Below, piece after piece: positions 1 to 15,932 of a stretch of DNA of 23,182 bases. The first letter of the stretch is position 1. Every line of letters starts with the position of its first letter. The DNA comes from a virus. The DNA lies in IMG/VR virus record IMGVR_UViG_3300013233_000216, positions 1-23,182 of that record, one strand, 5' to 3'. A program made the translations under genes and the position numbers. The notes below the pieces were generated by a model. That model did not search any database, was not told where the DNA came from, and worked only from the letters and a program-made list of their open reading frames with translations.

Positions 1-951
1 TTAAGTCAAGCCAAGTTATTACTTCTAATAAAGTCATATCATTTTTCTATTAGATTACCGGTATTCCGCGATATATTAGCTAAAAAAGCACATGCAGACA
101 CAGACAATGCGTATGAATTATTTAAGCGATATAAGGAACTTGATATTCATTTAAGTAATAACCACAGAGCCACAGGCGAAACATTAGAATACCTAACGTT
201 GCGATACGGTAAGGAGATAGCCGTCGCTAAGCGAGAAGTAAAGTCAGCAAGAGTAACAGGTGACAAGAACCCAGGATATCAGCACAACGGTACAATGTCT
301 CCATTTTCGGATAATTTTAGCAAATATGTTAATAATACAGCCCAGCATACTAAGGACGAAGTAATTGCTAAGCGGAAGGAAACAATGAAAAATAATCCAG
401 CATCAAACAATACAAACATAGAATTCTATAAAGCTAAAGGTTTATCGGATACTGAAGCAGCTATAGCATTAAAAGAGCGCCAAGTATCTAATGGATTAGA
501 ATGGTATGAAAATAAATATGGAAAAGTTAAAGGATTAGAAAAATACAATAGACGTATGAAAAAGTGGATGACATCATTTAAAAAATGTAATTTTTCTAAG
601 ATCTCACAAGAATTATTTAACGGAATAGTAAAGGATTACGATACAACAAACGTGTATTATGCTACACACGACCGCGATAATATGGATGGGTATGTTAATA
701 AAGAGTATGTATTACGCCTAACAAAATCATATTGCCGCCCAGATTTCATCGATGTTGATACTAAGAAAGTGATTGAATTTGATGGTGATTATTGGCACCA
801 TGGTCCACAAGTGAATAAAGACCGAGATATGTTACGTGACAAAGCAATCATAGAGCAAGGGTATACTATATTGCATGTACGTGAGCGAGAATTTAATAAA
901 AACAAAACAAAGGTAATCAAAGAGTGTTTAGAATTTTTACAATTAAGCTAA
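1..951 (+). CDS. Vsr-like (EDxHD/PD-(D/E)XK-type) homing endonuclease, 5' end outside window
   Basis: The frame is open from base 1, so the gene starts left of the window; a TTG at 199 could start a 250-aa protein but has no good Shine-Dalgarno. The nuclease core is at the C-terminus: RPDFIDVD (about residues 180-187 counted from the TTG), then VIEFDGDYWHH (about 191-201), then a helix and ILHVRERE. This order, acidic residue followed by EFDG-YWH, is that of Vsr-like homing endonucleases such as the I-Bth0305I family. The middle has a G-S-EA...RQ segment seen in phage homing endonucleases, probably a DNA-binding module. It lies directly before the C-terminal half of a split intein inside terminase, the site where such free-standing endonucleases sit in fractured phage genes. 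Its likely role is to cut intein-less terminase genes and spread the insertion. Family is confident; target is inference. Confidence 0.75.
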   Translation, partial: LSQAKLLLLIKSYHFSIRLPVFRDILAKKAHADTDNAYELFKRYKELDIHLSNNHRATGETLEYLTLRYGKEIAVAKREVKSARVTGDKNPGYQHNGTMSPFSDNFSKYVNNTAQHTKDEVIAKRKETMKNNPASNNTNIEFYKAKGLSDTEAAIALKERQVSNGLEWYENKYGKVKGLEKYNRRMKKWMTSFKKCNFSKISQELFNGIVKDYDTTNVYYATHDRDNMDGYVNKEYVLRLTKSYCRPDFIDVDTKKVIEFDGDYWHHGPQVNKDRDMLRDKAIIEQGYTILHVREREFNKNKTKVIKECLEFLQLS

Positions 952-1070
952 TACAACTATTACACCTGTGGGACGGAATGGATAATCACGAAGTGTTAAT
1001 TAATAACGCAATTGATGGCATTATAGATAATAACTACACTAAGGTATTCGATGAACTATATTGCGATTAA
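948..1070 (+). pseudogene. Out-of-frame C-terminal remnant of a second homing endonuclease
   Basis: In a frame different from the upstream endonuclease, this stretch reads LLHLWDGMDNHEVLINNAID and continues to VFDELYCD and a TAA at 1068-1070. It closely resembles the end of the intact endonuclease at 6574-7464 (LIHLWDGIGDHMQIIETAIT ... VYNQLYG). No catalytic core precedes it in frame, so it is probably what is left of an earlier endonuclease, replaced by the present one. It overlaps the first 20 bases of the terminase/intein reading frame that starts at 1051. Confidence 0.55.
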
Positions 1071-2805: not shown

Positions 2806-5247
2806 ATGGAAAAACAAGTATCTAAGAAAATATTCGACATTTTAGTATCAAAAGATTTTAATGTAGAAACATTCACATCAACAGGTAAAGCAGTAACAGA
2901 CCTAGCAGAAGTAGAAATGTTTAGCTTTAATTTTGAAAATAACGGCACTGATATGGGGAATGTAATCATCCTCCTGAACGCAGATAAAGAGTTAGTATTA
3001 TTCAGCACTGACGCCGAAGATAAGCAAGCAGATGCCGCTGACAAAGGTGCGTGGCAACGCTTCTTAAAGCACATGCGCATGATAGCTAAGCGTAATATGT
3101 TAGGATTTAAAGTACAAAACATAAATCAAGTAAAGTACGCAATGCAATCAATGGCCAGTGCGAAAATCAACGAAGCATATCACGGTTCTACAAAAACAAG
3201 CTATAACAATAAAAAAGGCAAAACACGCATAATCATCAAGCACAATAAAAAAATAGGTGAAGATGATAAGCGATACAGACATATTAATTCAATCTTCATT
3301 GAAAACGCAGCAGGCGAACGTTTTAAGTTACCATTCACAAAACTACCAGGTGCCAGAGCAATGGCCCGCCACGTAGAAGAAGGTGGAACACCGTATGATG
3401 ATTTTGGCAGTCACATTACAGAAATGGTAGAAGACATTGGCACATTAAGTGGTTTTGTAAGACGTAGCAAAATGTTTGAAGATGACGCCGACACACAAGC
3501 GATCGCACAAACAGGCAGAAATCACTATCAATCATTACGCAAAGGATTAAGTCAGATAGCAGGTAAGCGAGGATATCACACGTTCAAAGAAAATTGGACT
3601 CCTGCAGCGCATATAGAAGAATCGGATGATGACGTATCAAATTTGCGTGGGAAATTCACGAAAAAATCAATTAATCAGAAAGTAGACAATGCGTTACCAT
3701 TGTTAGCAAGATTACAGAAGCAACTAACAAAGGAAAGCACAATGAAAGAATTATCAGAATTTGAAGAATGGGCTAACAACATCATCGGCGAAGAAATAGT
3801 AACGGAATTAGATATGCGCACAGTCAAGGGCACAAAGCAGGTGGAAGATTTTAAAGGATATGAAATACATGTTCGCCCGTTAAGAGCTAAACAACCTGGC
3901 CTTAGCAATGTTGGCCAGCAAAAACAAATGAATAAAGTATTTATTGCGTTTGCATATGATACCGCTACAAGAAAAGAAGTTAAAGAGTTTAAAGCAAAAG
4001 GTTCTACTCGCAATGGCGCAGTAGCAGCCCTACAAGAGATTATATCAGCAGCAGATGACAAAAATCACAGTGCAGAGAATATAACTAGTCAATCTACCAT
4101 TGATTTTAATGTTATGTTTACTACACATTTATTAAAAGGTGAAGAAGAAATTTGGACTAAAATAATTGATGGGCCAACTTTAGTAATAGCAGGCGATGAA
4201 ATATTAGCTCTAGACGATACGTCATATTTAAAGCAAGATGGATTTAGCAGAAGTGGAATCAGAAATCCAAAAGCCGGTGAAGGTGCTGCCAAATTATTAG
4301 GATCACCACTTAAGGCAAATGCCCAATCTACTGTTAAAAAACACGGTAGATATTTAATCGGAGATGAAACCAGTGATAATGATGGAAACAGAGTATTTCC
4401 ACTATCATTGCATAGCACCGTTCGATCCAAGGAAGAAAAGTACACACTAAATAAACCATCGTTAACTATTGGCACCACCGACAATAAAAAAACAGAATCA
4501 ATCGAAGAAGGCAGCTGGGCAATGCCAGACAGCGAAGATAAAATAGCAGCACTAAGCGACTTCATGTCAGTGGAACAGCCAGTAGGAGTAGACGCAGAAA
4601 ACGCTACTAGCGCATTATACGATATAGTAGGCGATGATAGTTTATTCGACGCATTGCAGGAATTAGCAGAAAATGATCCAGAGGCCGATGCTAGAATAGT
4701 ATTACATAGCTGGATAGAAGATAGATACAACGCTCGTGATGGTTTTACAGATCAATCTGATATTAACGTAGCAGAACAGATGTACCACGCAGTACAATCA
4801 TTTGACCCATTTGCTACGCAGCAAACAGAAAGCACAGAGGGTGAATTACAAGACCGAGGAGGTTACGAAACAATGGAACCAATGAAATGGATGAAGAACA
4901 AGAAAAAACAGTCGCCAAAGATACAAGAAAGTAGCCAGGGTATTAGCGCATTATCACCTAAGCTAGCACACGCTATTCTTAATGACCAAATTGATCTATA
5001 TGATACGTTACAAGGTCCGAGTGAGTTTGTATCTACAAATGATTATGAGATTATACAAACAGCATATAACGAAGCATCAATTGATTATGGTTTGCATGCT
5101 GATGACGACCACGAAGAAATACTAGATAAGATATTTAATGAAATATATGATATTTTCGAAGATGCTAATAATTTTGAAGAATCTATTAGAGAATCAAGTG
5201 ACTTAACAGATTTAATTAAACGCACGAAATATTTATTACAAAGTTAA
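2806..5247 (+). CDS. Large protein of unknown function (813 aa), possible virion or internal-head protein
   Basis: I do not recognise a named family. The protein is hydrophilic with no signal peptide or membrane segment. Residues about 1-110 form a mixed alpha/beta region. Around 190-270 is a well-ordered stretch (RFKLPFTKLPGARAMARHV, then FVRRSKMFEDDADTQAIAQ) that looks like a conserved domain of marine T4-like phages. The middle (about 450-560) is rich in charged and small residues, and the last 130 residues are very acidic and helical. It starts 24 bases after terminase with AAGGT upstream of the ATG, and a strong terminator follows at 5273. Its place next to terminase and a possible late box suggest a structural or packaged protein, but this is inference. 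T4 itself has the tail sheath gene after gene 17; this is not a tail sheath by sequence. Confidence 0.6.
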   Translation: MEKQVSKKIFDILVSKDFNVETFTSTGKAVTDLAEVEMFSFNFENNGTDMGNVIILLNADKELVLFSTDAEDKQADAADKGAWQRFLKHMRMIAKRNMLGFKVQNINQVKYAMQSMASAKINEAYHGSTKTSYNNKKGKTRIIIKHNKKIGEDDKRYRHINSIFIENAAGERFKLPFTKLPGARAMARHVEEGGTPYDDFGSHITEMVEDIGTLSGFVRRSKMFEDDADTQAIAQTGRNHYQSLRKGLSQIAGKRGYHTFKENWTPAAHIEESDDDVSNLRGKFTKKSINQKVDNALPLLARLQKQLTKESTMKELSEFEEWANNIIGEEIVTELDMRTVKGTKQVEDFKGYEIHVRPLRAKQPGLSNVGQQKQMNKVFIAFAYDTATRKEVKEFKAKGSTRNGAVAALQEIISAADDKNHSAENITSQSTIDFNVMFTTHLLKGEEEIWTKIIDGPTLVIAGDEILALDDTSYLKQDGFSRSGIRNPKAGEGAAKLLGSPLKANAQSTVKKHGRYLIGDETSDNDGNRVFPLSLHSTVRSKEEKYTLNKPSLTIGTTDNKKTESIEEGSWAMPDSEDKIAALSDFMSVEQPVGVDAENATSALYDIVGDDSLFDALQELAENDPEADARIVLHSWIEDRYNARDGFTDQSDINVAEQMYHAVQSFDPFATQQTESTEGELQDRGGYETMEPMKWMKNKKKQSPKIQESSQGISALSPKLAHAILNDQIDLYDTLQGPSEFVSTNDYEIIQTAYNEASIDYGLHADDDHEEILDKIFNEIYDIFEDANNFEESIRESSDLTDLIKRTKYLLQS

Positions 5248-5492: not shown

Positions 5493-6563
5493 ATGGCCTC
5501 ATTAGCAGATATTCGTGCGCGTTTAGCCGCACAAGATAACAAATCAAACAAAACTTACACACCAGGCGAATCAGCAGTATACCCACATTGGAGCATCGAA
5601 GAAGGAAGCACAGCAATTATTCGCTTCTTAGAAGACGCCGACGCATCAAATCCATATTTTTGGACAGAACGACAAGTATTCAAATTCCCATTCAATGGCA
5701 TTAAAGCTAACGCAGCACTAGGAATCGAAGGTTCATCAAAAGAAACCATTGTGCAAATTCCATGTATGGAAATGTATGATGAAAAAGACACAGTACTAGA
5801 CGAAGTACGCACATGGTTCAAAGATCCAACAATGGAAGATATGGGTCGCAAATACTGGAAAAAGCGTTCATATTTGTTCCAAGGTTTTGTACGCAGTGAC
5901 CCAATGGAAGATGGCACCAAGCCTGAGAACCCTATTAGACGTTTTGTAATTTCCCCTCAAATCTTTACATTAATTAAAAACTCTTTAATGGATCCGGATA
6001 TCGAGAACTTACCAACAGATGCGTTAGGTGGTTTAGACTTCCGCATTAATAAAACAAAGAAGGGTGAATATTCAGATTATTCAACCTCAAGTTGGGCTCG
6101 CAAGGAAACAGCATTAACTGAAGAAGAAGGCGAAGCTATTGAGAAACACGGCTTGTTTAATTTAAGTGATTTCTTACCTGCCAAACCTTCCGAGGAAGCA
6201 CAGAAAGTAATTATGGAAATGTTCGAGGCGTCGATCGACGGTGAGGCATATGATGCCGAACGTTGGGGAGCATACTACACACCATACGGCGTTAGCAAAA
6301 CAGATACCAAAGCACGCGACATTCCGTTTGCTACTAAAGCACCTGTAGAAACAGCAATAGCGGCGCCTGCGACATCAGACATTCCTGCACCAGTAGCAGT
6401 AGCCGGTGGAGCAGAATCAATGGAAGCAGCAGTGGAAACAGCAGAAGCAGCAATAATCGAAGAACCTGTAGCAGAAGCAGCAGTAGTTAAAGATGAAGCA
6501 TCGGCTACTTCCGGGGATAAAGCGCAAGACATTCTTGCTATGATCCGTTCACGTCAAAAGTAA
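5493..6563 (+). CDS. 32: Single-strand DNA-binding protein gp32
   Basis: Coats single-stranded DNA in replication, recombination and repair and recruits UvsX, UvsY and replication proteins. The order follows T4 gp32: a basic N-terminal region (MASLADIRARLAAQ), an OB-fold core with KYWKKRSYLFQGFV (about 120-133), FVISPQIFTLIKNSL and LDFRINKTKKGEYSDYSTSSW (about 180-200), and an acidic, alanine-rich C-terminal tail (about 280-345). At 356 aa it is longer than T4 gp32 (301 aa), mostly in the tail. T4 gp32 binds zinc through one His and three Cys; here that region has only Cys91 and no nearby His, so the zinc site appears lost. ATG 5493 has AGGAGA eight bases upstream. Confidence 0.9.
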   Translation: MASLADIRARLAAQDNKSNKTYTPGESAVYPHWSIEEGSTAIIRFLEDADASNPYFWTERQVFKFPFNGIKANAALGIEGSSKETIVQIPCMEMYDEKDTVLDEVRTWFKDPTMEDMGRKYWKKRSYLFQGFVRSDPMEDGTKPENPIRRFVISPQIFTLIKNSLMDPDIENLPTDALGGLDFRINKTKKGEYSDYSTSSWARKETALTEEEGEAIEKHGLFNLSDFLPAKPSEEAQKVIMEMFEASIDGEAYDAERWGAYYTPYGVSKTDTKARDIPFATKAPVETAIAAPATSDIPAPVAVAGGAESMEAAVETAEAAIIEEPVAEAAVVKDEASATSGDKAQDILAMIRSRQK

Positions 6564-6572
6564 GATTAGCTC

Positions 6573-6666
6573 AGTGGAGTTAGTGCGAAAAGAGATATTA
6601 GATTTCCCACGTATATTTAATGCACGTGGGAAACTCAATAGTTATTTATTTCGCACTAACTCCACT
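6573..6666. repeat. Nested perfect inverted repeats (18 bp outer, 10 bp inner)
   Basis: Outer arms AGTGGAGTTAGTGCGAAA (6573-6590) and its exact reverse complement (6649-6666). Inner arms TTTCCCACGT (6603-6612) and ACGTGGGAAA (6624-6633) with an 11-nt loop. The whole forms a 94-nt two-tier hairpin that covers the start and first 31 codons of the endonuclease gene right after gp32. Confidence 0.9.
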
Positions 6667-7464
6667 TTCATGCGGTCGGACTTAGTAGATAAGATTAACT
6701 TATCTACTGTATTCTTAAAGGACGCAAACATAATAGAGCGTATATATTATATTTTAAATAATATAACATCGCCGGTTAAATGTCTAAGCTGCACAAGCAC
6801 AGTTAAGTTTATTAATCTATCAGTCGGACATCACTTATATTGTTCAACGCAATGCGTAAATGAATCAACAGCAGTTAAAGAGAAGCGTAATAATACATGT
6901 GCCGCTCGTTACGGGGTAGATAATTATTCGCAAACTCATATCTCGCACGAATCGTTAAGCAAATTATCCGATGAAGAATGGTTAATTGATCAGCATCACA
7001 TTAAGCGACGATCAGCAAGTGACATAGCAATCGATTTAGGCGTAGACAGTACTACAGTACTAAGTAAGATGAAGAAAATGAATATCGCCGTTCATCGGTA
7101 TGCTAATTCAAAGCCCGAAGGGGTATTATTAGAATCTATTGCTAGTGCGTACGATACTAGAATATTGCAGAATGTAAGATCGATTATACCACCACGTGAG
7201 ATTGATATCTACTTACCAGAGTTTCATCTAGCTATAGAGTTTAATGGCACGTATTGGCACAGGCCAGAAAAGTTTGGTGGATACAACGGGTGGATAGAGT
7301 ATCATCAAAGCAAAATAGATTTATGTGCTAAAAAAGGCATTAACTTGATACACTTATGGGACGGAATTGGTGATCATATGCAAATAATAGAAACAGCAAT
7401 AACCGAACCAGTTGACAATAAGTTAGCTAGTGTGTATAATCAATTATATGGACTAAAATGTTAA
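6574..7464 (+). CDS. Vsr-like homing endonuclease with zinc finger and helix-turn-helix
   Basis: Free-standing homing endonuclease between gp32 and uvsX. In order: a cysteine cluster (C70-x2-C73 and C90-x3-C94) that probably binds zinc; KEKRNNTCAARYGVDNYSQ (about 102-120), typical of this phage family; a helix-turn-helix (RSASDIAIDLGVDSTTVLSK, about 146-165); and the nuclease core with REIDIYLP (208-215), IEFNGTYWHR (221-230), KIDLCAKKGINLIHLWDG. It is probably intact. The GTG start at 6574 has no clear ribosome binding site and lies in the outer arm of a long hairpin; ATG 6670, just after the hairpin, is an in-frame alternative. T4 homing endonuclease genes are known to be held back by RNA hairpins over their start. 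Its last codons contain a perfect promoter (7412-7440), and it overlaps the next gene by 7 bases. Confidence 0.82.
   Translation: MELVRKEILDFPRIFNARGKLNSYLFRTNSTFMRSDLVDKINLSTVFLKDANIIERIYYILNNITSPVKCLSCTSTVKFINLSVGHHLYCSTQCVNESTAVKEKRNNTCAARYGVDNYSQTHISHESLSKLSDEEWLIDQHHIKRRSASDIAIDLGVDSTTVLSKMKKMNIAVHRYANSKPEGVLLESIASAYDTRILQNVRSIIPPREIDIYLPEFHLAIEFNGTYWHRPEKFGGYNGWIEYHQSKIDLCAKKGINLIHLWDGIGDHMQIIETAITEPVDNKLASVYNQLYGLKC
7390..7449 (+). repeat. 60-bp direct repeat, copy 1 (carries a promoter)
   Basis: Matches 8228-8287 at 57 of 60 positions without gaps, 838 bases apart. This copy encodes the last codons of the homing endonuclease (ETAITEPVDNKLASVYNQLY). Confidence 0.92.
7412..7440 (+). 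promoter_or_regulatory. Consensus sigma70 promoter inside the endonuclease tail
   Basis: TTGACA (7412-7417), 17-base spacer, TATAAT (7435-7440): a perfect match to both hexamers with ideal spacing. It would start transcription near 7447, ten or so bases before the ATG of the 7458 gene. Confidence 0.8.
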
Positions 7465-8252
7465 CTATTGATTATGCCGTAGGTGGATTAGGAAACACAA
7501 TATTATCGCATATACTTTATGCTTGCAATAAAGCCGATATCGATTTAACTACGTTGTTTAATCAAGCCACAGGCGACGCACATGCTCGTCGAGCGCAATA
7601 TACTAGCCCAGTACTTAACATCAACCATTGCAGTATTTCTGATAATGCCGCAGACCGAATCGATCACTGTTTTTTGCAGGTTATTTCATCTAGCCCGGCA
7701 AACTTGTTAGTTACTAGAATGGGTTATCTAAAATTTGTAGAACAAGTTCCGACTTCTGATAATTATAGTGCTTTTAATATAAAAATAGGTTGCTTACACG
7801 ACACTAATTTTGTTGAATTACTAGCATATTTTTACGAATCCTGGCATTACGAGTTAGTTAATGCTACCCATCAGATGGAATTAATGGATTATATCAGTGG
7901 CGATGATAGTAAATTAAAACTCATCGCCACTGAGTTAGAATGGTCCTGGGATGCCGCCAAGTCGGCTAAATTTTTTAAGTTAGTCAGAAAAGCCAATGAG
8001 GACCATATTAGTTGGTATAATACAATCGTTAAGTACATAACCGACACTATTAGTTTTAAAAAGAATATGTTAGTACTAGAGGATTGGGAGAAAGCAGCAA
8101 CTATAGTTGAAATTTGTAAGAGTCTAGCGGTCCGGCCTAGCGAGTTACACTGGGGAACACATGACTATTTTTCAGCGCCGGGCAACATTGATTTAATTAA
8201 TGATATAAAACAGATACTGCAACAACGAAACAGCAATAACCAAACCAGTTGA
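7458..8252 (+). CDS. Unknown protein with N-terminal GGLGNT motif
   Basis: 264 aa, no confident family. The N-terminus MLTIDYAVGGLGNTILSHIL has a glycine-rich loop of the type seen at the start of some glycosyl- and sulfotransferase-like proteins; no other catalytic motif is clear. A tryptophan-rich helical region follows (LEWSWDAAKSAKFFKLV, about 158-174), and the C-terminal VRPSELHWGTHDYF may end a domain. The 9408 gene on the other side of uvsX begins similarly (SYDSGSGGNMVYLSLLLAL), so the two may be distant paralogues. The gene overlaps the endonuclease by 7 bases and its stop lies in copy 2 of the 60-bp promoter repeat, so the repeats bracket it. Having its own promoter suggests early expression. 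Confidence 0.6.
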   Translation: MLTIDYAVGGLGNTILSHILYACNKADIDLTTLFNQATGDAHARRAQYTSPVLNINHCSISDNAADRIDHCFLQVISSSPANLLVTRMGYLKFVEQVPTSDNYSAFNIKIGCLHDTNFVELLAYFYESWHYELVNATHQMELMDYISGDDSKLKLIATELEWSWDAAKSAKFFKLVRKANEDHISWYNTIVKYITDTISFKKNMLVLEDWEKAATIVEICKSLAVRPSELHWGTHDYFSAPGNIDLINDIKQILQQRNSNNQTS

Positions 8253-8287
8253 CAATAGGTTAGCTAGTGTGTATAATCAAATATATA
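8228..8287 (+). repeat. 60-bp direct repeat, copy 2 (uvsX promoter)
   Basis: Second copy of 7390-7449 with three substitutions. Read in the endonuclease frame it still gives ETAITKPVDNRLASVYNQIY, but no endonuclease precedes it; the 7458 gene ends inside it in another frame. Confidence 0.92.
8250..8278 (+). promoter_or_regulatory. Consensus sigma70 promoter for uvsX
   Basis: TTGACA (8250-8255), 17-base spacer, TATAAT (8273-8278). Start expected near 8285, followed by GGAG (8295-8298) and the uvsX ATG at 8307. Probably the early promoter of the recombination operon. Confidence 0.82.
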
Positions 8288-8306
8288 ACAATGTGGAGAA
8301 AACATT

Positions 8307-9407
8307 ATGAGTAAACCGTTTGATATAAGCAAATTCAGAAAAGATATAACTAAGTCAATAGATGGCATGTCGGTTGGATTTCACGACCCAACCGACTGGA
8401 TCAGTACAGGCAACTATGCGCTTAACTATTTAATTAGTGGAGATTTTAATAAAGGTGTGCCGCTAGGCAAGGTAACAGTCTTTGCCGGAGAATCAGGATC
8501 TGGCAAATCGTTTTTTGCATCTGGCAATATAGTAAAGCACGCACAAGAACAAGGCATCTACGTGGTGTTAATTGACAGTGAAAATGCGTTAGACGAAGCA
8601 TGGCTACAAGCCTTAGGTGTTGATACTAGCGAAGAAAAGTTATTAAAATTATCAATGTCTATGATTGACGATGTTGCTAAAACTATTAGTTCATTTATGA
8701 AAGATTATAAAGCAATGGACGAAGATACCCGCCCTAAAGTATTATTCGTAATTGATAGCTTAGGTATGTTATTAACACCAACTGATGTTAAGCAGTTTGA
8801 AGCAGGTGACATGAAAGGTGATTTAGGACGTAAGCCTAAAGCATTAACAGCGTTAGTTCGCAATACAGTAAACATGTTCGGAGCACATAACGTAGGAATG
8901 GTAGCAACAAATCATACTTATGAATCGCAAGATATGTTCAATCCAGACGAAATCATAAGTGGTGGCCGCGGTTTTATCTTTGCGTCATCTATAGTAATCG
9001 CAATGAAGAAAATGAAATTAAAAGAAGATGATTCCGGCAATAAAACTACGCAAGTGCATGGTATTAGAGCAGGCTGTAAAGTAATGAAAACACGTTATGC
9101 TAAACCATTTGAGAATATCCAAGTTAAGATTCCATATAAAACAGGAATGAGTCCATATAGCGGTTTATTTGATATGGCAGAATCGCAAGGATTATTAGAG
9201 AAGTCTGGCAATAGTTATATTTTCATTACCAAAGATGGCGAAGAGCTAAAAGCTTTTCGTAAGAAATGGGAAAAGAATGAAAACGGTCTCTTAGATAAGT
9301 TAATGGCAGATATGGCAATGAGTGATTCACTTGAAGAAGTTAGCGTTGATACAGATGTTGATATCAATCGAGTAGTTGAGAAAATTGAAGAAACAAACGA
9401 AGCATAA
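8307..9407 (+). CDS. uvsX: UvsX RecA-like recombinase
   Basis: ATP-dependent strand-exchange protein that forms filaments on gp32-coated single-stranded DNA with help from UvsY; it drives T4-type recombination-dependent replication and also the homing events seen here. Walker A is GESGSGKS (61-68), DSENALDEAWL (90-100) is the RecA-type post-Walker acidic region, Walker B is LFVID (146-150), and VGMVATNHTYES (about 197-208) is the region after loop L1. At 366 aa it is close to T4 UvsX (391 aa). The start has GGAG eight bases upstream and a perfect promoter. uvsY lies two genes downstream, the expected functional partner. Confidence 0.95.
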   Translation: MSKPFDISKFRKDITKSIDGMSVGFHDPTDWISTGNYALNYLISGDFNKGVPLGKVTVFAGESGSGKSFFASGNIVKHAQEQGIYVVLIDSENALDEAWLQALGVDTSEEKLLKLSMSMIDDVAKTISSFMKDYKAMDEDTRPKVLFVIDSLGMLLTPTDVKQFEAGDMKGDLGRKPKALTALVRNTVNMFGAHNVGMVATNHTYESQDMFNPDEIISGGRGFIFASSIVIAMKKMKLKEDDSGNKTTQVHGIRAGCKVMKTRYAKPFENIQVKIPYKTGMSPYSGLFDMAESQGLLEKSGNSYIFITKDGEELKAFRKKWEKNENGLLDKLMADMAMSDSLEEVSVDTDVDINRVVEKIEETNEA

Positions 9408-13448: not shown

Positions 13449-13476
13449 TAGACATTTAGGATAAATGCTGTATAAT
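13449..13476 (+). promoter_or_regulatory. Sigma70-type promoter of the RNA cluster
   Basis: TAGACA (13449-13454), 16-base spacer, TATAAT (13471-13476). Start expected near 13483. An inverted repeat AAATGTC (13433-13439) / GACATTT (13451-13457) overlaps the -35 box and could be a regulator site. Confidence 0.65.
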
Positions 13477-13508
13477 GTAATATAACAGTTAGGAAACGAC
13501 GCTGTTAA

Positions 13509-13627
13509 GACAATAGCTGCTCCGGATGAGCGATAGCATAGTTAGAGTTCGATTCTCTTATAAGTACTGGATGTACGCTTTACCTCGTAACGAGGCACAG
13601 GTTGGTTCAACTCCAACGCTATTGTCA
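13509..13627 (+). ncRNA. tRNA-like element 1 (expanded)
   Basis: A perfect 9-bp closing helix GACAATAGC/GCTATTGTC abuts a canonical T arm (GTTGG-TTCAACT-CCAAC). A CCTCG-TAA-CGAGG hairpin before it resembles a type II variable arm. A GCTC-CGGAT-GAGC hairpin sits where the D arm should be, and there is a further hairpin AGAG-TTCGATT-CTCT. The total of about 118 nt is 25-40 nt too long for a tRNA. CTGGATG could be a seven-base anticodon loop with GGA (Ser), but its stem is weak. No CCA is encoded. It could be a domain of a larger RNA instead. Confidence 0.35.
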
Positions 13628-13885
13628 CTAGGAAAAAGGGGCAGGTGGTTCAGAGAGCCAAACTATGTCACTCTGGGTAGCATTGATAAAGTGTCCGGCC
13701 TAATTTAAACTGTACCCCGGATGGTTCCTAGGGGAATAATACAAGGGTTATAAAGCCTAGCTAAGCTAGTGCCTATAGCGTAACAGCAGTCCCGATGGAG
13801 CCACCAAATTTGAGAGATAATACGAGGGACTAATACCCACACGTGATTTCTTAAAGAGTAACGGGATTGATACATGTTAGGATCC

Positions 13886-13994
13886 TGTGTAATAGTATAA
13901 CGGCAATACGCTATCTGAGAGAATGTTAATTGTGGCTTAATTACCCACAAGGCAGTATCAAGGATGGAAATGGGGTTCAACTCCTCTTACACAC
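13886..13994 (+). tRNA. tRNA-like element 2, apparently interrupted in the anticodon arm
   Basis: The 5' third is a textbook tRNA: acceptor TGTGTAA, TA, D stem GTAT/ATAC with loop AACGGCA. The 3' end has a T arm (GGGG-TTCAACT-CCTC, one G-T pair, only four pairs) abutting TTACACA, the exact acceptor complement. Between them CTATC (13911-13915) can pair with GATGG, leaving a 47-nt loop instead of 7 that contains a TTGTGG/CCACAA hairpin. No CCA is encoded and the anticodon cannot be read. It may be a tRNA with an insertion, a decayed gene, or part of a larger RNA. Confidence 0.45.
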
Positions 13995-14130
13995 TCGACT
14001 AAATTGTAGTTTAATGATATCTACCTGATACAAAAATCATTATGGGATGATTTAACGTTTGAGATTTTTATTTCAAGCATTAACTAGTTAGTGATCACCA
14101 TGCGACTAGTAAAATAAAGCGGTGGTCAAT

Positions 14131-14203
14131 GCAAGGTTAGATTAATGGTAAATCATCGGGTTCCCCCTGAAAATGTAGGTTCGATTCCTGCACCTTTGCT
14201 CCA
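14131..14203 (+). tRNA. tRNA-Gly (UCC anticodon)
   Basis: Acceptor GCAAGGT pairs with ACCTTTGC with one bulged T; TA; D stem GATT/AATC with loop AATGGTA; an anticodon arm whose loop GTTCCCC puts TCC at 34-36; T arm GTAGG-TTCGATT-CCTGC; discriminator T and encoded CCA. The T73 discriminator, which is usual for bacterial tRNA-Gly, agrees with the anticodon. The variable region is short (three bases) and the anticodon stem has one mismatch, so it is somewhat divergent. Confidence 0.75.
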
Positions 14204-14209
14204 AATTAA

Positions 14210-14313
14210 CGACCGGCTGGAAATTAACATTAGCCAATAAGGCGCAAGATATATGGATTGATCACCGGAAATATTGCGCCCAGCGTGTGGTTCAAATCCG
14301 CACCGGTCGACCA
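14210..14313 (+). tRNA. tRNA-like element 3 with encoded CCA, expanded middle
   Basis: Acceptor CGACCGG pairs perfectly with CCGGTCG, followed by discriminator A and CCA; the T arm TGTGG-TTCAAAT-CCGCA is canonical and directly abuts it. A five-base variable region (CAGCG) precedes it, and GGCGC/GCGCC forms a stem at the anticodon-arm place but with a 30-nt loop rather than 7. The D region (14219-14235) lacks the usual GG in its loop. Length is 104 nt with CCA, about 28 above normal. Ends look like a processed tRNA; the decoding part cannot be assigned. Confidence 0.5.
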
Positions 14314-14373
14314 AATAAAAGGTTGACAGTCCTTCAAAACTGTCGTATAATATGTACTTAATTAATAAGCCAA
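14313..14373 (+). repeat. 61-bp promoter repeat, copy 1
   Basis: Matches 14602-14662 at 57 of 61 positions without gaps. It holds TTGACA (14323-14328), a 17-base spacer and TATAAT (14346-14351), a perfect sigma70 promoter. GACAG (14325-14329) and CTGTC (14340-14344) form an inverted repeat between the two boxes, a typical place for an operator. It lies just after the CCA of tRNA-like element 3. Confidence 0.88.
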
Positions 14374-14381
14374 GGTGTTAT

Positions 14382-14603
14382 ATGTGTGAAAAACTAGCAA
14401 ATGAGATAGCATCATTAATCGATGATTCTATTGTGAAATCAAATAACAGTGGATATGCTGTATTAACAGGATTCAATAGTAGTATTTCGTTGAATAATAG
14501 CACTAAAATAGTCATCATTCGCTCACCGTATTTTGCCTCATTATCTCGTAAAATCGAGCATTTAATCAGTGATCCCTGGACCACACAGACTGTTGATATC
14601 TAA
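14382..14603 (+). CDS. Small unknown protein
   Basis: 73 aa (MCEKLANEIASLIDDSIVKS...), no recognised family; one Cys and a mixed helix-strand pattern. The frame could open at an ATG at 14352, but that codon touches the -10 box of its own promoter and would lie upstream of the expected transcription start near 14358. ATG 14382 has AAGGTG nine bases upstream and is chosen. It is flanked by the two 61-bp promoter copies, so it forms a very short early unit. Confidence 0.55.
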   Translation: MCEKLANEIASLIDDSIVKSNNSGYAVLTGFNSSISLNNSTKIVIIRSPYFASLSRKIEHLISDPWTTQTVDI

Positions 14604-14662
14604 ATAAAAGGTTGACAGACCTTCAAAACTGTCGTATAATACATACTTAATTAATAAACCAA
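14602..14662 (+). repeat. 61-bp promoter repeat, copy 2
   Basis: Second copy, 289 bases after the first: TTGACA (14612-14617), 17 bases, TATAAT (14635-14640), with the same inverted repeat GACAG/CTGTC between the boxes. It drives the AAA+ ATPase gene at 14689. Confidence 0.88.
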
Positions 14663-14688: not shown

Positions 14689-15678
14689 ATGACAATGATG
14701 GTAACTATTAAAGAAGGTACATACCGTAACGCGGAAGTACACAATCAAACATTCGAGCTAGTATCGGATATCACAGATGGCAAAAAAGGTCCGTTTATAA
14801 CAGTCCGCCCCAACGATACAGTTGGAATAGGCCGCGACAAAATACGTGTTCACGTTCACGCAGATAACGTTCAATATAATACTACTAAAGTAGCCAAAGA
14901 AACAGACGACGAAATAATGGATCGCATTAAAGATCGTTTTGATATTCTTGAAGAAATGACAGCAGCAGCAATCGAATCTAATATACGTGCGATGATTGTA
15001 GTTGGGCCTCCTGGCGTTGGCAAATCATACGGTGTTATTAAGCAATTAGAAAAAGCTGACTTATTTAACAAAGTAAAAACAGTAGTACCACGCTACGAAG
15101 TAATTAAAGGTGCTATGACACCAATCGGCCTTTACAAGACACTATATACGCATAGTGATGCTAATCAAGTAATAGTATTTGATGATTGCGATTCGATTTT
15201 CATGGATGACTTATCTCTTAACTTACTTAAAGCAGCACTAGACAGCAGTAAAAAACGCAGAATATTCTGGAACAGCGATTCTAGCTTATTACGCCGCGAA
15301 GGAATTCCTGATAGTTTTGACTTTAAAGGTTCTGTAATCTTCATTACTAACTTAAAATTCGATAATATCAAATCTAAAAGATTACAAGATCACTTACAAG
15401 CATTGCAGTCTCGCTGTCATTATCTTGATTTATCACTTAATAGTACGCGCGATATGATGTTGCGTATTAAGCAAATTCATAGAGAAGGCGAATTGTTTGA
15501 TGATTATCATTTTGAAGCAAACGAGCCCAATGCGATTATTGAATTCATGGAAGAAAATGTAGATAATCTTAGAGAATTAAGTTTGCGTTCATGTTTGAAA
15601 ATCGCAGATTTAATTAAGATTAACCCAACACGCTGGCAGAAACTAGCGGCTAATACAGTTATGAAAAATAGCTACTAA
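14689..15678 (+). CDS. AAA+ ATPase
   Basis: 329 aa. Walker A is GPPGVGKS (106-113), Walker B VIVFDD (161-166) followed by CDSIF, and a sensor I type asparagine sits in VIFITNLKF (about 222-230). The first 70 residues form a separate beta-rich domain (GTYRNAEVHNQTFELVSDIT...). No helicase motifs are present and it does not look like the gp44 clamp loader, which should carry a further SRC motif; a remodelling or loader ATPase is more likely. The start has AGGAG and an early-type promoter copy. A structured intergenic region follows rather than a simple terminator. Confidence 0.85.
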   Translation: MTMMVTIKEGTYRNAEVHNQTFELVSDITDGKKGPFITVRPNDTVGIGRDKIRVHVHADNVQYNTTKVAKETDDEIMDRIKDRFDILEEMTAAAIESNIRAMIVVGPPGVGKSYGVIKQLEKADLFNKVKTVVPRYEVIKGAMTPIGLYKTLYTHSDANQVIVFDDCDSIFMDDLSLNLLKAALDSSKKRRIFWNSDSSLLRREGIPDSFDFKGSVIFITNLKFDNIKSKRLQDHLQALQSRCHYLDLSLNSTRDMMLRIKQIHREGELFDDYHFEANEPNAIIEFMEENVDNLRELSLRSCLKIADLIKINPTRWQKLAANTVMKNSY

Positions 15679-15932
15679 TTAGACGTAACGATTATCAACC
15701 AAGTTGAATATCCTATATATAGCGTCTAACTTTATAGTACAATGGATTGTACTTAATTGGAGTACACGGTAGTACTCATTTTAATCCATTATGTATTTGT
15801 ATAATGTAAGTCATTGATTTATATAGACTTATTATACAGTATATATAGTTCACTTAAACCGTTAAGTCATTGATTTATATAGAGAAAGTGAAATATTTGG
15901 CGCACGTAGCGCATCTAACAGGGTAATGACAC
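15679..15932 (+). other. Structured intergenic region with nested inverted and direct repeats
   Basis: No gene in 254 bases. Seen: TTAGACG (15679-15685) with CGTCTAA (15723-15729); an 18-bp palindrome AGTACAAT-GG-ATTGTACT (15736-15753); GAGTAC-ACGGTA-GTACTC (15760-15777); AATGGATT (15741-15748) with AATCCATT (15783-15790), an alternative pairing that closes the previous hairpin. Two perfect 21-bp direct repeats starting TAAGTCATTGATT lie at 15807-15827 and 15863-15883. A TATAAT at 15800-15805 has no good -35. It could be a regulatory RNA, binding array or origin element. Confidence 0.7.

Follow-up and report, generated by a model that had tools for sequence, protein, structure and literature searches.

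A consensus sigma-70 promoter that appears to have been born inside the coding end of a homing endonuclease gene, and a piece of that coding end later copied or left behind in front of the recombinase gene uvsX, together make up what we consider the probable, if far from certain, history of the phage locus described here. The window, i.e., the whole stretch of DNA that was analyzed, is the entire 23,182-base record of an uncultivated virus. Its source is a large phage, and the best match of its uvsX gene among named phages is to Pseudomonas phages around PA5oct, the match covering only a portion of that gene (~68% identity at the DNA level). In gene order, a single-strand-binding-like gene (5493) is followed by the homing endonuclease gene (6574), by a bracketed gene that we denote g7458 and by uvsX (8307). 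The features of this locus are as follows.

5493..6563, + strand: ORF that we take to be a single-strand-binding-like gene, which relatives have upstream of uvsX or of the uvsX cargo
6572..6666, + strand: long inverted repeat, or nested hairpin, at the annotated endonuclease start (RNA fold of 6560-6690, -51.3 kcal/mol, z -7.85)
6574..7464, + strand: short Hef-type homing endonuclease, 296 aa (phrog_3339; relatives L109, L110 and L241; alternative ATG at 6669)
7390..7449, + strand: repeat copy 1, endonuclease codons 273-292 with a consensus promoter (repeat scan, codon alignment)
7412..7440, + strand: TTGACA-N17-TATAAT in copy 1, 12/12, the -35 hexamer in the V-D-N codons and the -10 hexamer in the Y-N codons
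7458..8252, + strand: g7458, the bracketed gene, 264 aa (ORF with homologues L102-L108)
8227..8286, + strand: repeat copy 2, putative detached endonuclease tail fused to the uvsX leader (repeat scan, codon alignment)
8227..8310, + strand: candidate relic endonuclease reading frame, its TGA on the uvsX start (ATGA), from translation
8249..8277, + strand: TTGACA-N17-TATAAT in copy 2, 12/12, the -35 hexamer beginning 58 nt upstream of the uvsX ATG
8307..9407, + strand: uvsX, RecA-like recombinase (phrog_97 E 1.6e-71, Pfam RecA)

The two copies form a gapless direct repeat with 57 of 60 nucleotides identical (95%), and each contains a sigma-70 consensus matched at 12 of 12 positions with a 17-nt spacer. 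A 95% repeat with TTGACA-N17-TATAAT in each copy had been predicted from the sequence and is borne out; copy 1 lies where it had been placed, and copy 2 had been set one base off, at 8228-8287 instead of 8227-8286. The perfect site occurs five times in the 23,182 bases, on the + strand every time, compared to a mean of 0.01 in dinucleotide shuffles of the window, none of which (0/100) reached five; together with the 57/60 identity, these counts rule out a chance match. Given that two of the site pairs are copies, the window holds only three independent perfect promoter elements, two of which are duplicated. In 11 related records (~1.55 Mb), a looser consensus (spacer 16-18) was found 40 times vs. 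3 times for a reversed control, so that the window is unusually dense in perfect promoters. Exact searches of viral contigs with the two promoter elements yielded no match.

Ordinary codons do spell the two hexamers, and hence they could be incidental coding sequence and the repeat a recombination scar with no promoter role. We regard this as improbable given the 12/12 match in both copies, against the 0.01 sites expected in the window, and the 58-nt distance to uvsX, which agrees with that of other promoters in the same slot (many at 52-59). The record being a fragment of an uncultivated virus, it is also conceivable that a metagenomic contig was wrongly joined at a shared 60-bp stretch; however, three mismatches separate the copies, the flanks outside the repeat on either side follow the gene arrangement known from relatives, and the contig contains another, unrelated promoter pair, which leaves such an artifact with very little likelihood.

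The alignments show that copy 1 is true coding sequence and belongs to a short homing endonuclease of the Hef type. The 6574 protein matches the phrog_3339 homing endonuclease family (E 1.7e-30), has tblastn matches in 325 phage records and shows homology to phage homing endonucleases in the nuclease core (EIDIYLPEF..AIEFNGTYWH), which places it among the Hef-like enzymes; site-specific cleavage and homing are predicted from this homology. No match up to E 1 was found when solved structures were searched with the endonuclease profile, and eight distant matches of a genome collection to the endonuclease alignment were left out of the analysis. With Hef-like phage homing endonucleases, annotated as such in several records, the window protein has in common both the sequence family and the C-terminal tail: all 15 aligned long Hefs possess a residue-by-residue counterpart of this tail, closing in a YARKC-like motif that aligns with YGLKC of the window, and then run ~165 residues further. 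The long-form C-terminal domain that follows this motif in 15/15 long Hefs is absent from the window protein as well as from L109 (53% identity, best segment), L110 (50%) and L241 (41%), the short relatives with which it groups. Truncation of the endonuclease by g7458, suspected from the comparison with the long Hefs, was dropped because these short relatives end at the same place.

Across the 20 repeat-coded residues, L109, L110 and L241 each show 8 identities, and none of 20,000 shuffles was as good for any of them (in the L241 tail alignment, one residue was dropped to hold the register). Copy 1 corresponds to residues 273-292 of 296; the earlier statement that it encodes the last endonuclease residues is accordingly accurate save for the final four (GLKC), which lie just beyond the repeat. 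The 12/12 promoter site spans codons 280-289, and the next gene begins at 7458. In the same register, the L109, L110 and L241 tails match the promoter at 7, 5 and 8 of 12 positions, with 3.5 expected by composition. Because three relatives share the in-register tail and none has a promoter there, the most likely birthplace of the promoter is the endonuclease gene itself, in the lineage of the window. The original prediction that an endonuclease tail had become a promoter is supported by these partial matches and by the Hef tail homology across the whole repeat.

Copy 2 is most likely an endonuclease tail that became detached and now abuts the native leader of uvsX. Past the repeat, copy 1 goes on as endonuclease (GLKC) and copy 2 as AACAATGTGGAGAAAACATT-ATG, the uvsX leader. 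Single-base differences between the copies lie at 7405 (E to K), 7421 (K to R) and 7444 (L to I); as all three alter an endonuclease residue, nothing points to protein-level constraint on copy 2. Translated in the frame of the endonuclease, it reads as ETAITKPVDNRLASVYNQIYNNVEKTL followed by a stop, the TGA overlapping the uvsX ATG; the frame is thus open, as had been noted, although the changes are not all conservative as had also been claimed, given that E to K is not. As a trace of the endonuclease, this open frame to the uvsX start is suggestive only, since, with 7 codons added and one of three frames to be hit, we estimate that about one case in four would arise by accident. Copy 2 also supplies the last 8 codons (RNSNNQTS) and the stop of g7458, an end that adjoins the end point of the homologue L102.

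With respect to the order of events, the original prediction had the endonuclease directly before uvsX as promoter donor, with g7458 inserted later together with a 60-bp duplication. The endonuclease frame of copy 2, open to the ATGA overlap with uvsX, is in line with this order, as is the fact that, in relatives, cargo ORFs frequently stop at or within the start of uvsX (L021, L028, L033, L103, L104). Moreover, a uvsX tree of 36 rows calls for four or more gains or losses of g7458, which is missing from L006-L009, the nearest relatives. However, homologues of the g7458 protein were found in 7 viral contigs (L102-L108, among which L106 is the same contig as L033, with identical uvsX in L104/L105 and in L033/L107), and in each of the 7 the homologue is flanked by the single-strand-binding gene on one side and uvsX on the other, with the endonuclease in none, so that g7458 can reach this slot unaided by the endonuclease, which argues against cargo dependent on the repeat for its arrival. 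Furthermore, an endonuclease-uvsX junction was seen in 0 of 80 uvsX loci, and no intermediate with the endonuclease directly before uvsX, or with a single copy, was found. Insertion of g7458 between the copies is therefore not favored; given the gains and losses of g7458 and the fast turnover of the slot, we keep the original order as a less likely alternative. Relatives that keep both copies with no endonuclease, which had been named as evidence against the original prediction, did not come to light, the promoter repeat being present in 0/80 uvsX loci; in the same ungapped scan of relatives, promoter duplication was rejected as a general feature of the uvsX locus.

The g7458 protein had no match in Pfam, PHROG or the phage collection, and its structure model (mean pLDDT 54.5) is too poor for use. 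Neither a transposase nor terminal inverted repeats mark the inserted unit as a transposable element with a target-site duplication: the single inverted pair is unrelated, and g7458 lacks a Pfam or PHROG match. The notion that g7458 and g9408 are paralogues on either side of uvsX was abandoned, the two showing no similarity.

The slot between the single-strand-binding gene and uvsX turns over quickly in relatives, in which this gap is either short and mostly promoterless or taken up by cargo of varied kinds, radical SAM and methyltransferase genes among them. We compared occupied and empty slots among 87 loci, reduced to 63 by removal of near-identical upstream stretches, setting aside 15 loci with no measurable gap and 3 with gaps of 150-300 bases. 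A promoter of at least 9/12 lies before uvsX in 19/32 occupied vs. 1/13 empty slots (Fisher 0.0015), of at least 10/12 in 11/32 (the window included) vs. 1/13 (Fisher 0.066, not significant), and of at least 11/12 in 8/32 vs. 0/13 (Fisher 0.049), although these values overstate independence because the loci are phylogenetically related. At the threshold of at least 10/12, the reverse strand of the same stretches gave 0/32 and random 90-mers 2%, and the promoter overlaps the end of the upstream ORF in 8 of the 11 occupied slots. Thus, a promoter ahead of uvsX tends to accompany an occupied slot, and it often lies within the last cargo gene. L010 and L011, whose flanks are 95% identical in DNA, form a natural before-and-after pair for cargo and promoter: the L010 slot holds 1.7 kb of cargo, the last gene of which overlaps at its end with an 11/12 promoter, and L011 is empty with at most 8/12. 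This pair offers a chance to watch a core gene regain a promoter after the arrival of cargo.

Promoters embedded in endonuclease genes are already known; the novel part is the detached, duplicated promoter-bearing tail, for which no report was found within the literature searched. According to a study of phage T4 (Virol J 2010, PMC2988022), endonuclease genes carry promoters for downstream genes (that of gene 32 in segG, and others in segA, segE, mobB and mobC), and such embedded promoters are argued there to favor endonuclease retention. By sequence, the window belongs with the segG type: as for segG and gene 32, the downstream promoter lies inside the endonuclease coding region, and, as with T4 endonucleases, a replication/recombination gene is a neighbor and a strong hairpin lies near the endonuclease start. 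The nested hairpin of the window may limit endonuclease expression, as in some T4 endonucleases. Unlike those of the T4 cases (PMC2988022), the promoter of the window matches a host-type consensus perfectly and sits in the last codons; in addition, a detached second copy would serve a core gene, with another gene in between. A study of SegB in phage T6 (PMC13096335) describes endonuclease- and UvsX-dependent segmental repeats involving the segB 3′ end; in common with the window, the 3′ end of a free-standing homing endonuclease joins rearrangements that repeat a neighboring gene, whereas SegB is a GIY-YIG enzyme with many-copy tandem units and the window has a nuclease of unrelated type and a single spacing of 837 bp. 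A further report describes nuclease genes located at the boundaries of exchange (PMC10448857).

A short Hef-type endonuclease gene occupies the rapidly changing slot that separates the single-strand-binding gene from uvsX, and we propose that point changes in its C-terminal codons (V-D-N ... Y-N) produced a perfect sigma-70 promoter in the coding end, able to drive the next gene. A 60-bp tail piece would then have been copied, or would be the bodiless remnant of an older endonuclease copy, which would account for its place between g7458 and uvsX. Copy 1 would drive g7458 and copy 2 would drive uvsX, both with host-type sigma-70 transcription, so that uvsX would have been released from dependence on the endonuclease for its promoter. 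The extra tail copy would most likely stem from recombination or break repair near an endonuclease. The repeat itself, its descent from endonuclease codons, the lack of the promoter in the tails of relatives, the turnover of the slot and the link between occupied slots and a promoter before uvsX are established by the sequences, whereas we infer that the promoters function, that the second copy was made by recombination or break repair, and in which order these events took place.

Embedded promoters are thought to retain homing endonucleases in phage genomes, given that deletion of the endonuclease would remove an essential promoter. As a tentative generalization, in which we place less than even confidence, homing endonucleases might trap themselves by hiding an essential-gene promoter in their coding end, and the phage studied here might have broken the trap via the detached tail before uvsX; more widely, genes that come to lie before uvsX in this phage group might tend to evolve the uvsX promoter in their own last codons, with promoters repeatedly reborn from unrelated coding ends. 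A detached promoter-bearing tail is a predicted escape route from such dependence and, if this is true, the endonuclease would be dispensable for uvsX expression.

Several further elements of the window bear on the origin of promoter repeats.

942..1070, + strand: second orphan short-Hef tail, bodiless, read in a different frame and following immediately on a DUF559-type endonuclease ORF (stop at 951)
13449..13476, + strand: probable older AAA-gene promoter, 1.2 kb upstream of the gene (alignment to AAA leaders)
14313..14373, + strand: second promoter duplication, copy 1 (promoter 14323-14351)
14375..14603, + strand: small ORF between the copies of the second duplication (listed from 14352; the downstream ATG near 14375 is preferred)
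14602..14662, + strand: second promoter duplication, copy 2, upstream of the AAA gene at 14689 (promoter 14612-14640)

The orphan tail matches at 7/12 in the promoter register; being promoterless, it indicates that a left-behind tail need not be a promoter, and its presence shows that endonuclease tails outlive their bodies. The second duplication, missed by the original prediction, is 57/61 identical and unrelated in sequence to the 7390 pair. Local alignment of the promoter-like 13449 site to the leaders of the AAA genes in L006, L008 and L009 gave scores of 62, 51 and 58 (the best of 300 random placements scored 41); hence, intervening sequence has probably cut the AAA gene off from its former promoter, and another has taken over.

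This second pair would fit a different explanation of the locus, under which the 60-bp unit is a mobile promoter element of a dispersed regulatory family that shuffles genes by homologous recombination, akin to PeSLs, the promoter-stem-loop cassettes found in T4-type phages (Arbiol 2010; Comeau 2014; both as cited in PMC4503421). PeSL cassettes, in which an early promoter is coupled to a stem-loop terminator and which occur as many dispersed copies flanking accessory genes, are the closest promoter repeats known. The likeness consists in strong promoters that flank genes as direct repeats able to recombine. Two related genomes contain promoter repeats bracketing genes (one in G007; three clear and one doubtful in G011; 40-61 bp, 88-97% identity), and such repeats were not seen in G001, G002 and G003; the promoter-repeat scan covered 40,000 of the 41,221 bases of G001, 138,093 of G007 and 160,000 of G011, and the remaining genome pieces were covered by promoter-pair comparison only, on the + strand. 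Furthermore, G011, a 300-kb relative (L212, L213, L214, L218, L239), has a dispersed promoter family, 'GGTTGACC...GCTATAATATACACATAGCAAAGC', with 11 distant pairs at least 80% identical outside the hexamers. However, no relatives of the 7412/8249 element occur in other parts of the window (mean identity of distant pairs 0.33), the 23 kb containing no further copies of the 60-bp unit, and the element is protein-coding in origin; unlike a PeSL cassette, the unit is endonuclease coding sequence with no dispersed copies in the window. Nor do the copies contain a clear stem-loop: both fold weakly (z -1.80 and -0.46), and no PeSL-type stem-loop terminator, or listed terminator-like site, was found at either. 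We therefore judge a dispersed cassette to be an unlikely source of the 7390 repeat and retain an endonuclease origin as the preferred reading.

Additional observations concern other parts of the window and its relatives. L024, L036 and L074 show the succession promoter, short stretch, promoter and then AAA gene. At 13480-14312, several motifs resembling a T-arm (GTTCGATTC, GTTCAACTC, GTTCAAATC) suggest a run of tRNA-like genes, of which one tRNA-Gly alone was recognized. The large terminase ORF (1051-2781) has an intein-like start ending in SHN-T beside the place where L009 has its GKT motif; an endonuclease ORF lies upstream, and the region 1-2781 presumably resembles a split-intein 'fractured gene'. 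In L008, a 158-bp direct repeat (2369-2526 and 2971-3128, 90%) is present, and the g9408-type gene after uvsX occurs in two copies. Finally, a perfect 21-bp direct repeat lies at 15807-15827 and 15863-15883 of the window, and a similar AATCAATGACTTA-like motif precedes the AAA gene in L006-L009.
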